Source: Pseudomonadota bacterium (lineage in GTDB: Bacteria > Pseudomonadota > Alphaproteobacteria > Kiloniellales > J153). Taken from it: 41,580 nucleotides of DNA. Within the stretch, counting starts at the first letter, position 1; every line of letters starts with the position of its first letter. The DNA is taken from positions 1 to 41,580 of the forward strand of contig JACZVL010000004.1 in the NCBI GenBank assembly GCA_022572685.1. Direction: 5' to 3'. This document shows, in pieces, positions 12,310-19,235 of this stretch. Made by a program: the position numbers and the translations under genes. The notes under the pieces are model-generated. The model saw nothing but the letters and a program-made list of their open reading frames with translations. It did no database searches and was not told the origin of the DNA.

Positions 12310-12609
12310 ATGCTAGCCACCCAGCAAGACCCGGAGAGGGAGAAACTGGCCCGCCGCTATGTCTGGTGGCGGGAGCCGGACGCGGCGCTTGGCGACCTGC
12401 CGCGCCTGCTGTGCCAGATCATGGCCTTCGGGACCGCGCGGGACTATGTGGCGGCGCGGCGAATCTGGGGCGAGGGCGCCTTCAAGGACGCGCTTGGCGG
12501 CGCGCTTCCCGGCGCCATGGACGCGCGCTCCTGGGCGTACTGGCATCGGTACTTCAAGCTGCCGGAGCGCGCCATGCCGACAAGGTGCTTCGATGACGCC
12601 GCACCTTGA
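12310..12609 (+). CDS. Small protein preceding an AbiEii-type nucleotidyltransferase; candidate antitoxin or partner
   Basis: MLATQQDPEREKLARRYVWWREPDAALGDLPRLLCQIMAFGTARDYVAARRIWGEGAFKDALGGALPGAMDARSWAYWHRYF; overlaps next gene by 17 bp. Confidence 0.6.
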   Translation: MLATQQDPEREKLARRYVWWREPDAALGDLPRLLCQIMAFGTARDYVAARRIWGEGAFKDALGGALPGAMDARSWAYWHRYFKLPERAMPTRCFDDAAP

Positions 12610-13264
12610 AATCCTGCCGCCGCCGCAACGCGGGTTCTGGGACGCCCATGCGCGGAGCGTTCCCGAGGGCTGGGTTCTCTATGGCGAAACCGCGATCGCC
12701 TTGCGATACGGACACCGGAGCTCGGTCGATTTCGATTTCTTCTCCGACCGCGAGCTGAACGAGGACGCGCTCAGGCGAGAGGTGCGGCCGCTGCGTGACG
12801 GCACGGTCGTCGTTCGGCGGCCAGATACGCTGATCGTGGCCGCACCTGTCGATGACGGCGAGGTCCGCCTGTCCTTTTTCGGGTCCATAGGCTTCGGCCG
12901 CGTGGGCGAACCGGATCGAATGCCGGGCAAGTTTCCGATCGCATCGCCACTCGATCTTCTGGCGACGAAATTGAAGGTCTTGCTTCAACGCGTCGAGGCC
13001 CGGGATTACCTCGACGTGGAAGTATTGCTGCGTGGGGGTCTGTCGCTGAATCAGGGCGTTTCGGCCGCGCTGGCCCTGTTCCCCGATCAAATCAATCCCC
13101 TGGACGTCGCGAAGACCGTCGGCTGGTTCAAAGAGGGCGATCTCGACGCTCGACTGCCCGAGGGCGTCAAAAAATTCCTGACGGCGGCGTCGGTGTCGTT
13201 CCAACCCGAGGTCCACGCCATGAGGCTGGCCGCAAGGAAACTGGGACCGGACGCGGCGGCTTGA
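12593..13264 (+). CDS. Nucleotidyltransferase AbiEii/AbiGii-type toxin family protein
   Basis: VLYGETAIALRYGHRSSVDFDFFSDRELNEDAL...SPLDLLATKLKVLLQRVEARDYLDVEVLLRGG; GxT/A...SxDFDFF nucleotidyltransferase signature and KxxxxxxRxxxRDYxD. Confidence 0.8.
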   Translation: MTPHLEILPPPQRGFWDAHARSVPEGWVLYGETAIALRYGHRSSVDFDFFSDRELNEDALRREVRPLRDGTVVVRRPDTLIVAAPVDDGEVRLSFFGSIGFGRVGEPDRMPGKFPIASPLDLLATKLKVLLQRVEARDYLDVEVLLRGGLSLNQGVSAALALFPDQINPLDVAKTVGWFKEGDLDARLPEGVKKFLTAASVSFQPEVHAMRLAARKLGPDAAA

Positions 13265-13310: not shown

Positions 13311-13547
13311 CTACCGAAACGGCGAACCATCCTGCCGTTCCGCCAGGCTCAAGGCGCGGAGAATGGCGAGGGCGCTGTCCACGAGGATCGACGTCGAGCC
13401 CTTCTCGAACTTGACCACCGTGGGTTGGGTCACCCCGGCCAGCGCGGCCAGGTCCCGCTGGCTCAGGCGCTCCTGTTTTCGGACCGTAACGGCCTCGCGC
13501 ACCAGTCGTTCCCAATTCAGCATGGTCGCTCCGTCGTTCAGGGACAA
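13311..13547 (-). CDS. XRE-family HTH protein, HipB-like antitoxin
   Basis: LSQRDLAALAGVTQPTVVKFEKGSTSILVDSALAILRALSL. Confidence 0.85.
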   Translation of the reverse strand: MSLNDGATMLNWERLVREAVTVRKQERLSQRDLAALAGVTQPTVVKFEKGSTSILVDSALAILRALSLAERQDGSPFR

Positions 13548-14728
13548 ATACGAAAGTACGCCGCGCGTAGCGTGTCGGCGAAAAGGTCGCGAAAATCGTT
13601 TTCCTCGACCCTTTCCGGCGGCGGCACGAGCCCGAGAAGCTGTTCTCTTCTCTTCGCAAAACCTTCAAAGGTTCTCGCGATCGCCGGCCGGGGCAATCCC
13701 AGTTTCAGCCCTAATCCGGTCAACAAATCTCTGTCGATTTGGTCGAACTGGCGAAGTTCATTGTCGATGCGCAGACCGAACCGCGTGCTGTAGCCTTGAG
13801 CGCCGTAGATATAGGTATTGACGATATCGTAGGCAGGCGAGAGGCGCAGCCCAACGACCGTTTCGAGCAACGAGAAATTCTTCAGATGGCAGTCGCAATT
13901 GCCGATCAAGGCATAGGCGACGATACGCTGAAAGTACCGCAGAATATCTATTTCGGGGCGGGCGCTGTGGCGGGTGATCGCCGCGCCGATGTCTTCGAAA
14001 CCGGCGTCGTATTTTCCCAAGTAATCTCTTCCCCGCGGCTTGGACAGGATTTGCGCGAAATCCTCGAGCCTGAGCTTGTCGCCATCGGGCGTGCGGTCGA
14101 AGCGGCGCACGACGAGTGCCGGTCTGGGAATTCCCACGACCGCGGCGGGCTCCGCCTCCACCACCTGGTCGCGCCCCAAGAGCAGTCGGGCCGCCTTGAG
14201 AGCGAGCGTCTCGTTGGCAACGATATTGGGAAGATCGTCACTCGGAAACTTCGCGATGTAAGGCGCGGGGCCGGCGGCTCCCGCCGGAACGAACCCCGCC
14301 GCGCCCTTGGTGACGAGAAGTTTCGGTTGTACCCCGGAGAGGGTCCGCTTGCCCGCGACGGCCGCCGCGGTGAGTTCGTCGAGCTGCCCCCGGCCGGCGG
14401 AGACCGGAGGCTCCACGGGCGCGTGAATCGAAACGGCGCCGATGCAGTCCACGCCAAAAGCAAGCAGGATGCCGAAATCGTCCTCGACGGCGATCTCGGC
14501 GGTCCTGGCTTGTCGATCTCGCAGCCAGCCCTCCGGCCCCAGGTGCTCGAAGAAGGGATGCAAACCTACCGGCCAGGTGTGACTGTCATGGGCGCGTGGC
14601 AGGGCGCAGGCGATGTCCTCCGGGAACTGGCGGTCGTACTCGAAGACCGTCCCGCCCTCGGCGGTCTCGCGCAAGGTCCCGGCTCGGCGGTCCTTGAAGT
14701 CTATCCGGGCATGACGCAGCGCAGCCAT
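13538..14728 (-). CDS. HipA-family serine/threonine kinase toxin
   Basis: 396 aa; GKRTLSGVQPKLLV, APYIAKFPSDD, VVRRFDRTPDGDKLRLEDFAQI, GNCDCHLKNFSL, LSPAYDIVNT. Confidence 0.92.
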   Translation of the reverse strand: MAALRHARIDFKDRRAGTLRETAEGGTVFEYDRQFPEDIACALPRAHDSHTWPVGLHPFFEHLGPEGWLRDRQARTAEIAVEDDFGILLAFGVDCIGAVSIHAPVEPPVSAGRGQLDELTAAAVAGKRTLSGVQPKLLVTKGAAGFVPAGAAGPAPYIAKFPSDDLPNIVANETLALKAARLLLGRDQVVEAEPAAVVGIPRPALVVRRFDRTPDGDKLRLEDFAQILSKPRGRDYLGKYDAGFEDIGAAITRHSARPEIDILRYFQRIVAYALIGNCDCHLKNFSLLETVVGLRLSPAYDIVNTYIYGAQGYSTRFGLRIDNELRQFDQIDRDLLTGLGLKLGLPRPAIARTFEGFAKRREQLLGLVPPPERVEENDFRDLFADTLRAAYFRICP

Positions 14729-15982: not shown

Positions 15983-16030
15983 CTATCCCACCGCGATCAC
16001 CGGCTCGCCCAGCACCTCCAACTGCGGCCC
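15983..16030 (-). pseudogene. 3'-terminal remnant of a mandelate racemase/enolase-superfamily gene
   Basis: Minus-strand translation [15 protein letters not shown] matches the C-terminus [15 protein letters not shown] of the gene at 18132-19235; 35/41 nt identical (15990-16030 vs 18139-18179). Confidence 0.75.
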
Positions 16031-16227
16031 TCACAGCGGCAAATGGTCATCGGGCTGGGGTCTGGATCGCCAAATTAGCCCGATGTAGAGGGAGATTGCC
16101 ACGTACCATTCCAAATTAGAATTCTACTTCCTATTGAGTGTATTCTGTGGTAACACTCTCGCTAATCGGGAATCATCGCTTTTTCGTAGGTTCCCAATAG
16201 TGCTTCAGCAACTCAGGGAGATATCTA

Positions 16228-16443
16228 ATGGCTGTACGGAAAGGCATTGGTTCGCAAGAGCTTCAACGCACAAGTGGTGCACTCGAACTAACGGAACTTT
16301 CTGGCAAGGATTTCAATAATGAGATCGCTAAGTCCCGCATCATGGATGCGGTCCATAGGCACGTGAGAGAAGATCTCGGTGTTGCGCCGGACGAGGTTGA
16401 AGTCAAATTTGGACTGAAATTTAGCCTCGACATCGAGTTTTGA
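16228..16443 (+). CDS. Short 71-aa peptide, putative radical SAM-modified (RiPP) precursor
   Basis: AGGGAG (16215-16220) 7 nt before ATG; MAVRKGIGSQELQRTSGALELTELSGKDFNNEIAKSRIMDAVHRHVREDLGVAPDEVEVKFGLKFSLDIEF; directly upstream of the radical SAM gene. Confidence 0.65.
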   Translation: MAVRKGIGSQELQRTSGALELTELSGKDFNNEIAKSRIMDAVHRHVREDLGVAPDEVEVKFGLKFSLDIEF

Positions 16444-16455
16444 TTCCGAGAGAGA

Positions 16456-16476
16456 CGAGGGCTTCCGAAGTCCTCG
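16456..16476 (+). promoter_or_regulatory. Intercistronic 9-bp hairpin between peptide gene and radical SAM gene
   Basis: CGAGGGCTT-CCG-AAGTCCTCG (one G-T wobble); no U-tract follows. Confidence 0.6.
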
Positions 16477-16507
16477 CCTCAAATTATGCCGCAGAACTTT
16501 ACGCAAA

Positions 16508-17725
16508 ATGTTTCAGACGGTAATCATCAAGCTTACCGCAGTCTGTAATCTAGACTGCACGTACTGTTACATGTTCAATCTTTCGGACAAGACCTTCTTG
16601 CGTGTCCCTGCCATGATGGCGCACGAGACTGCGGCCGCCGTAATTGATCTAGTTGATAGGCATCTAAGCCGTCACGGCAGCCCACCATTCCAAGTAGTCC
16701 TGCACGGCGGCGAACCAACGCTGTGGCCGACGGCGGACTTCCAACACTTGCTTGAACGGGTTGATGCGTTATGTGGCAAGCACGCACGTGTTAAGGTTAG
16801 TCTGCAAACCAATGGTGTTATGCTGCGGCCCGCGCTTGTGCGACTGTTGGCATTACACCGGGTGTCTATTGGTATTAGCCTCGATGGTCCAAAGCCGTAT
16901 AACGACCAGGTTCGCGTCGACCATTGCGGCCGAGGGTCATACGACAAGGTAATTCGCACCGTTACGGCGCTATTAGACCAGGAGGGCCAAGGCAATCTTA
17001 TCGGCGGCTTTTTGGCCGTAGCTCAGCCGCAGATCCCACCGCTGCAATTTCTTGATTGGATCGCAAGACTTCCGGTCCCTCGAGTAGATGTGCTGTGGCC
17101 CATCGAATTCAATTACGACAACCCGCCTTGGTCTGACGTTCGGTTCGCCGATTACATTCGAAAGCCCCGGTACGGGCATTGGTTTGCAACATTGTTTGAG
17201 CATTGGTGGCGACGCGATGATCCGGAGATCTACATCCGCCATTTCTATGACATCCTCGAACGCATGGCGGGAAGCAAGGTCCATACGGATGCAATCGGCA
17301 ACGACATGTTGAACATGTTCGTGGTCAACACCGACGGTGGCATCGAATACCCGGATTATTTTCGCGCTTACCGCGATGGTGGGGCGCGGACACCTTTTAA
17401 TGTGTTCGAACATGATCTCGACGAAATTTTGGCCGACGAAGTATTCAGTTATTGTTTGAACATGGGTCAGCACCAACCGGTCGAATGCCGAAAGTGTCCG
17501 CACCTGCATGTTTGTGGAGGCGGATTTCTGCCAGGTCGGATGGCAACGGGCGAGACAGTCCCATTGCGAAAGTCTGTGCTTTGTTATGATCACTATTACT
17601 TTCTTTCGAGAGTTGCCGAGTTGGCCGCACCGTATTTGGCGAAGTCTACTGCATTGGGTCAAAGTGTTAACGTTGGCGGTGAATTGTCCGCCTTCGCGTC
17701 GCAAGAGAGCTTGAGAGTGACGTAA
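16508..17725 (+). CDS. Radical SAM/SPASM domain protein, putative peptide maturase
   Basis: 405 aa; CNLDCTYCYMFNLSD (CxxxCxxC), VVLHGGEPTLW, VSLQTNGVML, ISLDGP; C-terminal CRKCPHLHVCGGGFLPGR...SVLCYDHYYF SPASM-like cysteines. Confidence 0.92.
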   Translation: MFQTVIIKLTAVCNLDCTYCYMFNLSDKTFLRVPAMMAHETAAAVIDLVDRHLSRHGSPPFQVVLHGGEPTLWPTADFQHLLERVDALCGKHARVKVSLQTNGVMLRPALVRLLALHRVSIGISLDGPKPYNDQVRVDHCGRGSYDKVIRTVTALLDQEGQGNLIGGFLAVAQPQIPPLQFLDWIARLPVPRVDVLWPIEFNYDNPPWSDVRFADYIRKPRYGHWFATLFEHWWRRDDPEIYIRHFYDILERMAGSKVHTDAIGNDMLNMFVVNTDGGIEYPDYFRAYRDGGARTPFNVFEHDLDEILADEVFSYCLNMGQHQPVECRKCPHLHVCGGGFLPGRMATGETVPLRKSVLCYDHYYFLSRVAELAAPYLAKSTALGQSVNVGGELSAFASQESLRVT

Positions 17726-17728
17726 AGC

Positions 17729-17872
17729 GTGTGGAACAGCGTGGGCGTGGTGATCGAGCTCGGCCCAGTCGGTCTTATCCACCAAGACGACAAGCTCGTG
17801 CTTCATGTTGATGGTCTGATCGAGACCGGCGCGGAAAAGATCGTCATGCCGCGCCTTCTGCTGGTATTTCGA
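17729..17872 (-). pseudogene. Decayed N-terminal fragment of an IS5-like DDE transposase
   Basis: Minus-strand frame SKYQQKARHDDLFRAGLDQTINMKHELVVLVDKTDWAELDHHAHAVPH resembles the start of IS5-type transposases (..LFRxxLDQIINMxHELVxLAxxIDWxxL..); a stop directly follows the first candidate ATG and homology is lost near 17728. Confidence 0.5.
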
Positions 17873-18131
17873 TCACATCCGATCCTCCAATATCAATGCC
17901 TTGAGGGAATCACAAATCGGCCGGAAAATGATTCCTAATTCGCAAGAAAACGGTCGCCAAAACTAAGGTTTCCTGCAAATTCGGTAAATTCGAATCAGTG
18001 AAAACGCCAGGCAAATCAAAGGCGGTCTGGTTTTTCACAGGGACCGACATGATTGCGAAATGTCTCGCGTGCGTTCCCCCACCCCATGGCAATTGCTCAA
18101 CGGTGGCGTCAGCAAATCGTCGTGGCGCGAC

Positions 18132-19235
18132 TCAGGAGACCGCGATCACCGGCTCGCCGAGCACTTCCATGCGCGGCCGCACGCCCAGGCCGGGGGCGTC
18201 GGAGGCGGCCATGCGGCCGGCGAGGCGTTGGGGGGCGCCCTCGGCGATCGACACGCTCACGTAGCTGTTGAAGTCGGTGGCGGTGAAGCGGAACGGTTCC
18301 GGGGTCGAGTGGTAGAGGTGGGCGATGGCGGCGGTCACGATGTCGCCGCCCCAGGAATCCTCGATGGTCATGGCGAGGCCCATGGCGACGCAGAGATCGC
18401 GGAGCCGGCGCGCCTTGGTCAGGCCGCCCAGCTTGCTGATCTTGATATTCACCACGTCCATGGCCCCATCGGCGTGGCCGCGCAGCAGCATCTCGATGCC
18501 GTCCACCGATTCGTCGAGCACGAAGGGCTGGTCGCAGTGGCGGCGCACGCTCAGGCACTCCTCGTAAGACAGGCAGGGCTGCTCGATATAGACGTCGAGG
18601 TCGCGGACCGCGCGCAGCACGCGCAGGGCCTGATGGGGCAGCCAGCCGGTGTTGGCGTCGGCGATCAGCACGTCGCCGGCCTCACACCGCTCGGCACAGG
18701 CTTGGATGCGCGCGATGTCGGTGTCCGGGTCGCCGCCGACCTTGAGCTGGAAGCGCCGGTAGCCCTCGGCCCGGTAGCCGGCGACCCGGGCCGCCATGGC
18801 GTCCGGCGCGTCTTGCGAGATCGCCCGGTAGAGCATGCCGTCCTCGCCATCGCGCCCGCCCAGCAGGGTGCAGACCGGCAGCCCCGCGGCCTGGCCCAGG
18901 ATGTCCCAGCAGGCCATGTCGAGGGCCGATTTCACGTAGGGGTGGCCCTTGAGCCGGGCGTCCATGTGCCGGTTGAGCGCGTCGAGCTCGCGCGGGTCGC
19001 GGCCGATCAGCGCCGGCGCCAGCTCGGCGATCCCGGCGCGCGCGCCGGCGGCGTAGGACGGCAGATAGGAGGGCCCCAGCGGGCAGACCTCGCCGTGGCC
19101 GGTGACCCCGGCGTCGGTCTCGATCCGCACCACGGTGGAATCGAACACCGAGACCGACTTGCCGCCGGACCAGTGGTAGCTGCCCTCGTGCAGCGGCAGG
19201 TCGACCTGATAGGCCGATATCCTGGTGATTTTCAT
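18132..19235 (-). CDS. Enolase superfamily (MR/MLE) protein, cis-3-hydroxy-L-proline dehydratase-like
   Basis: [54 protein letters not shown]...[10 protein letters not shown]...IADANTGW...VLDESVDG...[13 protein letters not shown]...[14 protein letters not shown]. Confidence 0.85.

Follow-up and report, generated by a model that had tools for sequence, protein, structure and literature searches.

In the FxsA/FxsB and HaaA/HaaB systems a short precursor, with aromatic residues near its C-terminus, is encoded directly upstream of a radical SAM/SPASM enzyme. Peptides of the YhhA type terminate in Tyr/His-Arg motifs (YDR, HNR), and the YhhB genes that we examined are either fused to a long extension or have an oxygenase gene downstream. 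A radical SAM enzyme partnered with an aKG-HExxH peptide hydroxylase is known from the ChlBH pathway (PMC12636437). ChlB itself is fused to the hydroxylase, and its structure has been solved in complex with the precursor leader. Three-residue cyclophanes described so far have Asn, Asp, Arg, Ser or Ala in the third position (PMC11002830). In the passages of PMC7159879 devoted to MoxR/vWA conflict systems, FxSxx peptides and Trypco1 proteins are separately listed components: the former, with SPASM radical SAM enzymes, represent a peptide-processing part of these systems, and Trypco1 is a frequent neighbour of trypsin-like proteases.

The locus described here was found in a stretch of 41,580 nucleotides (the window) of contig JACZVL010000004.1, from the metagenome-assembled genome of a Pseudomonadota bacterium (GCA_022572685.1; Alphaproteobacteria, Kiloniellales). 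It comprises a 71-aa ORF and a 405-aa enzyme ORF, co-oriented and separated by a gap of 64 nt (Table 1); no transporter or protease gene was seen in it. An earlier note, made from the letters of the window, had claimed a well-spaced ribosome-binding site for the 71-aa ORF, as well as CxxxCxxC and SPASM-like cysteines in the enzyme, and our mapping agrees with it on both points. The radical SAM motif corresponds to C13/C17/C20 and the SPASM-like CX2CX5C...C motif to C327, C330, C336 and C359, and all these residues are invariant in the relatives. We consider it quite probable that the two genes, laterally acquired, form a RiPP system of a peptide and its cross-linking enzyme.

Table 1. Features of the gene pair and its surroundings in the window.
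Feature	Position	Strand	Remark
40-nt imperfect direct repeat, left copy	15990-16029		Match to 3' end of MR/MLE-superfamily gene
AGGGAG ribosome-binding site	16215-16220	+	7 nt before the ATG of the 71-aa ORF
71-aa precursor-peptide ORF	16228-16443	+	Start served by the ribosome-binding site
Proposed core FGLKFSLDIEF (aa 61-71)	16408-16440	+	Contains FGL and FSL, both aromatic-x-Leu
Intergenic stem-loop of the gene pair	16452-16480	+	RNA fold
Radical SAM/SPASM peptide maturase, 405 aa	16508-17725	+	Pfam PF04055
IS5-family transposase remnant, N-terminal part	17738-17863	-	Translation
Right copy of the 40-nt repeat	18139-18178		Inside gene 18132-19235(-)

Among the NCBIfam profiles, the enzyme is matched best by YhhB (NF041707; 260.6 bits, cutoff 445), followed by FxsB (TIGR04269; 232.5 bits, cutoff 370) and XyeB (141.7 bits, far under the curated cutoff). 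Three relatives that were scanned likewise reach 226-235 bits against YhhB and 203-214 bits against FxsB, and all four enzymes, including that of the window, miss every NCBIfam cutoff. In a maximum likelihood tree of 42 sequences the window enzyme and its four close relatives group together as a single clade (support 100/100) that is separate from FxsB, HaaB, YhhB and XyeB. Among solved proteins, the radical SAM enzyme ChlB comes nearest (E 1e-39 by sequence, 3e-54 with a profile), and it is also the best PDB match of the predicted fold (Foldseek E 2.7e-17), although this model is of moderate confidence (pLDDT 66.7) and its Cys loops are poorly modelled. ChlB shares the Cys pattern with the window enzyme but only ~25% of its residues. 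With both cysteine motifs in place and XyeB, GrrM, FxsB and YhhB as nearest kin, the enzyme has the sequence features of triceptide-class maturases; it is a SPASM protein of the peptide-maturase type, and its nearest neighbours are enzymes that form cyclophanes. Two further enzymes (L016 and L017), from the same class as the window genome, branch beside the clade and have Gly-rich repeat peptides (FRRGGFVRG...) encoded upstream.

The four close relatives (46-49% identity; 47-49% in the best segment) were obtained by scanning 85,462 species genomes, a scan that detects close relatives only, and belong to Streptomyces canus, two Polaromonas and one Comamonadaceae MAG. Including the window, five loci have been found in all, three of which are close kin, and the gene pair spans two phyla. 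Its rarity is illustrated by Polaromonas, in which 2 of 87 genomes carry a clade enzyme, and by the lack of further clade members among 60 kin of the window genome and in samples of its phylum (399 genomes), the Comamonadaceae-type family (350) and the actinobacterial class (346). The locus of Streptomyces canus, like that of the window, has two genes only, and transposase genes flank the pair. The Polaromonas and Comamonadaceae loci possess a third gene behind the enzyme gene, whose product matches the aKG-HExxH peptide hydroxylase profile TIGR04267, the family also found in ChlBH; in contrast to the fusion in ChlB, the Polaromonas hydroxylase is a separate gene. No such hydroxylase was seen in the window's 81%-complete genome, in a search run without a positive control.

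Beyond these loci, a tblastn search of plasmids with the 71-aa peptide gave no match. Plasmid homologues of the enzyme (26-33% identity) were rejected as members because the upstream peptides are unrelated in those inspected, and a Calothrix plasmid peptide of similar length was rejected as a homologue (z 1.8). A single-protein scan of viral contigs found no relative, and an alignment scan of viral contigs gave partial matches of 21-35%, none of them a true relative. Some plasmid loci are nevertheless worth recording in their own right. On the Calothrix plasmid (L002:697-5155) the 69-aa ORF and an FxsB/YhhB-like enzyme, a two-gene layout resembling that of the window, lie beside a NACHT-domain gene. 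A Rhodococcus plasmid (L009:3550-7286) encodes, one after another, an FxsB-like radical SAM enzyme, an HExxH enzyme and a protein of the caspase family, an arrangement that, by analogy, resembles conflict-system peptide processing. Two Rhizobium plasmids (L004:2721-6276 and L006:1986-6249) carry an FxsB-like radical SAM gene together with an HExxH gene, preceded by large proteins of 380 aa (L004) and 632 aa (L006) and by no short peptide; the L006 locus sits among conjugation genes.

A short ORF lies directly upstream of the enzyme gene in all four close relatives, and its product is homologous to the window peptide. Smith-Waterman scores of the latter are 57 against the Streptomyces peptide (z 7.0), and 46 and 47 against those of Polaromonas and Comamonadaceae (z 6.0 and 6.8), values that were equalled or exceeded by 0-1 of 2000 shuffles. 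Compared with either the Polaromonas or the Streptomyces upstream peptides, the 71-aa ORF ranks first among 620 stop-to-stop frames of the window, and the pairing is therefore not a matter of chance. Strong purifying selection is evident in the relatives: dN/dS is 0.04 in the Polaromonas precursor pair, with 7 of 8 nucleotide differences synonymous, and 0.026 in the C-terminal half between the Polaromonas and Comamonadaceae copies, where synonymous sites are saturated. The earlier note had tied its reading to a conserved short ORF under such selection, and both are found here: a gene-encoded precursor is conserved beside its modifying enzyme, and selected, as in a RiPP. Where the note saw a self-contained two-gene system, its RiPP reading holds, given the conserved precursor, the selection and the enzyme class, but two genes are only one version of the locus, given the hydroxylase of Polaromonas and Comamonadaceae. 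The window locus may lack nothing, as in Streptomyces, or may have lost a gene of the three-gene form.

All five precursors combine an RI[LM]xA-containing helix with a tail of the aromatic-x-Leu/Met type, and Cys is absent from each of them. The tails read FGLKFSLDIEF in the window, FGLKW-COOH in Polaromonas and Comamonadaceae, and WDMDFTLHIHADEED in Streptomyces, with the motifs FGL, FSL, WDM and FTL arranged as FGL-K-FSL, FGL-KW and WDM-D-FTL, respectively. An AlphaFold2 model of the window precursor, of low confidence (pLDDT 57.5), has a helix at aa 26-50 and an unstructured tail at aa 51-71; no PDB match was detectable. The division into leader and core, with the core at aa 61-71, where position and pattern are conserved among the precursors, is what these features suggest.

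Between precursor and enzyme genes the window has a stem-loop of -16.9 kcal/mol (centroid; z -1.6), and in Polaromonas (z -3.9) and Comamonadaceae (z -4.0) the corresponding gap holds far stronger hairpins of different sequence; the Streptomyces locus has none. Since no T-run or terminator-like site was found after the stem-loop, it more likely serves stability or stoichiometry than termination. Very stable hairpins in this intergenic position (L012:5918-6003 and L014:5925-6003; -39 and -49 kcal/mol, z about -4) keep a GGGGC/GCCCC base, and their inner sequence has changed.

The gene pair is foreign to its host. It lies on a low-GC island of ~2.1 kb (~16050-18090), with a GC content of ~0.50-0.54 compared to 0.66-0.75 outside; GC3 is 0.49 in the peptide and 0.58 in the enzyme gene as opposed to 0.90-0.94 in ten flanking host genes, and the mean log codon probability of the two genes (-1.86 and -1.74, respectively) lies below the -0.6 to -0.7 of host genes. 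These values confirm the AT-richer stretch and the different codons that the earlier note had described, but not the end that it had set at 17728: low GC extends to ~18090 and takes in the IS5-family remnant. This remnant has 57-74% identity to plasmid sequences, and two among the matches listed are annotated as IS5 family transposase. The island is a single copy within a host-like contig of the 81%-complete genome, which makes contamination unlikely. It is neighboured by a metallo-beta-lactamase/rhodanese gene on one side and an MR/MLE-superfamily gene on the other. In the nearest sister genome both host genes are kept, and a SAM-dependent methyltransferase gene and other sequence, including a low-GC segment, lie between them (L056:4593-6280); yet another gene occupies the site in another relative, and the site between the two host genes is thus a variable spot. 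Composition, the IS5 remnant, the different insert in the sister genome and the transposases around the Streptomyces pair together indicate that the gene pair was acquired laterally and recently.

Two observations concern the surroundings of the island. It is bracketed by the 40-nt direct repeat (88% identity, first 20 nt identical), whose left copy, a stray duplicate of the MR/MLE gene's 3' end, resembles an attachment-site duplication, but no integrase is present. At a distance of 1-4 kb to the left are genes for an AbiEii-type nucleotidyltransferase toxin and for HipA, the latter accompanied by an HTH (HipB-like) partner (12359-13264(+) and 13311-14728(-)), the HipA gene having an intermediate GC3 of 0.75, and the whole stretch from 12 to 18 kb looks like a patchwork of acquired genes.

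In the mechanism that we propose, the 71-aa peptide would be made first and its helical part (~aa 26-50) would be bound by the radical SAM/SPASM enzyme. A 5'-deoxyadenosyl radical would then lead, in the disordered C-terminal tail, to C-C bonds between aromatic rings and a residue close by, most likely as three-residue cyclophanes F61-G-L63 and F65-S-L67, with a loss of ~2 Da for each. Cleavage and any export would be left to host enzymes, or the modified peptide might stay and act inside the cell. C-C cyclophanes appear likelier than thioethers because the precursors lack Cys and their tails bear aromatic-x-Leu/Met, and the profile matches of the enzyme are led by the cyclophane-forming maturases YhhB, FxsB and XyeB. 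On balance, we regard three-residue cyclophane chemistry as probable. Its assignment to F61-G-L63 and F65-S-L67 is more tentative and is the least certain part of our interpretation, since Leu or Met would be a new acceptor; moreover, the alternating F-x-L-x-F-x-L-x-I is also expected of a plain beta-strand, and the tail resembles the strand of Trypco1.

Other readings of the locus have to be weighed against this one. A SPASM radical SAM enzyme beside a short ORF is a common layout of sactipeptide- and ranthipeptide-type thioether systems, yet no Cys donor exists in the window peptide or in those of the relatives, which excludes thioether chemistry unless the substrate is another peptide; such a system is hardly conceivable here. 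Gene order, enzyme class and the top profile matches, YhhB and FxsB, would also suit an ordinary FxsA/FxsB or YhhA/YhhB triceptide locus. However, the four clade enzymes scanned stay far under the NCBIfam cutoffs and the clade stands separate in the tree, and the peptide lacks an FxS motif and the FxSxx C-terminus as well as the Tyr/His-Arg endings of YhhA and matches no FxsA, HaaA or YhhA profile; an alignment of the precursors against FxsA gives an hhalign E of 0.81, no match. Membership in FxsA is rejected by motif, profile and tree alike, and an ordinary triceptide locus of either type is very unlikely. It is somewhat less improbable, but still unlikely, that the pair is a decaying passenger, the functionless remainder of a former multi-gene cluster. 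The IS5 remnant just downstream, the gene-free low-GC tail and the hydroxylase that three relatives have and the window genome apparently lacks would fit such decay, but neither ORF is broken, all catalytic Cys, the ribosome-binding site and the intergenic hairpin are retained, and Streptomyces canus makes do with the same two genes.

A different connection emerges from the peptide itself, which the earlier note could not match to any named precursor family. A named family can be given: the peptide scores 23.4 bits against CU044_2847 (NF041216), just above the cutoff of 23, and 23.3 bits against Pfam Trypco1 (PF19493), just below the cutoff of 24.6, both over partial length. An HMM built from 30 actinobacterial Trypco1 domains scores 21.9 bits over aa 9-68, where helix and strand ('PdeVeveFGvKls') are in register, as compared to 8.5 for the best of 3000 shuffles and 7.6 for the top scorer among the upstream peptides of 17 other FxsB-like enzymes. 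The five-precursor alignment compared with that of Trypco1 gives an hhalign probability of 87 (pairwise E 4e-6); without the window sequence the same comparison is weak (E 0.018-0.074), in an unchanged register that sets NPAAISIVFGLK against PPDTVSVEFGIK. A common ancestry of the peptide and Trypco1 is plausible from these similarities and falls short of proof, because the signal rests mainly on the window sequence.

The resemblance could mean that the 71-aa protein is simply a small Trypco1-type conflict adaptor, and that the radical SAM enzyme next to it has another substrate or no functional connection with it. The profile scores favour this, but the match stops ~20 residues before the end of the Trypco1 domain, a C-terminal part that the window peptide lacks, and with that HMM the orthologues from Polaromonas, Comamonadaceae and Streptomyces are at chance level or close to it. 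Trypco1 is linked to trypsin, whereas the window peptide is linked to a radical SAM enzyme: trypsin and conflict genes are absent among the flanking proteins scanned, the window's genome has no second Trypco1, the 30 Trypco1 genes used for the HMM have no such enzyme within 1.5 kb, and the pairing of peptide and enzyme is kept across two phyla. We regard the adaptor reading as improbable. Less remote, although speculative, is a Trypco1 domain, the trypsin-like proteases' partner in bacterial NTP-dependent conflict systems, turned RiPP precursor, in which the helix would have become the leader, the FG[LV]K strand the cross-linked core and Leu/Met a new acceptor, with the product acting as an intracellular signal or effector of a defence-like system. 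In the portions of the literature that name Trypco1 we found no published link to radical SAM-matured peptides, and as far as these portions go, the adaptor appears not to have been tied to such peptides before.

Returning to the RiPP reading that we prefer, the five loci represent, as judged by their sequences, a new and rare branch of peptide maturation by radical SAM enzymes, to which a separate family of precursors belongs; present evidence does not make it a new kind of system. The locus is small enough for tests in Escherichia coli, and its clade adds very rare, probably peptide-crosslinking enzymes. The versions of the locus predict different products: one cross-link and a hydroxylation in Polaromonas, two cross-links without hydroxylation in the window and in Streptomyces. 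The resemblance to Trypco1 offers a concrete sequence link between RiPP precursors and conflict systems. If the precursor indeed derives from Trypco1, the binding surface might be common to ordinary Trypco1 proteins as well, and confirmation of this ancestry would make the finding more interesting.
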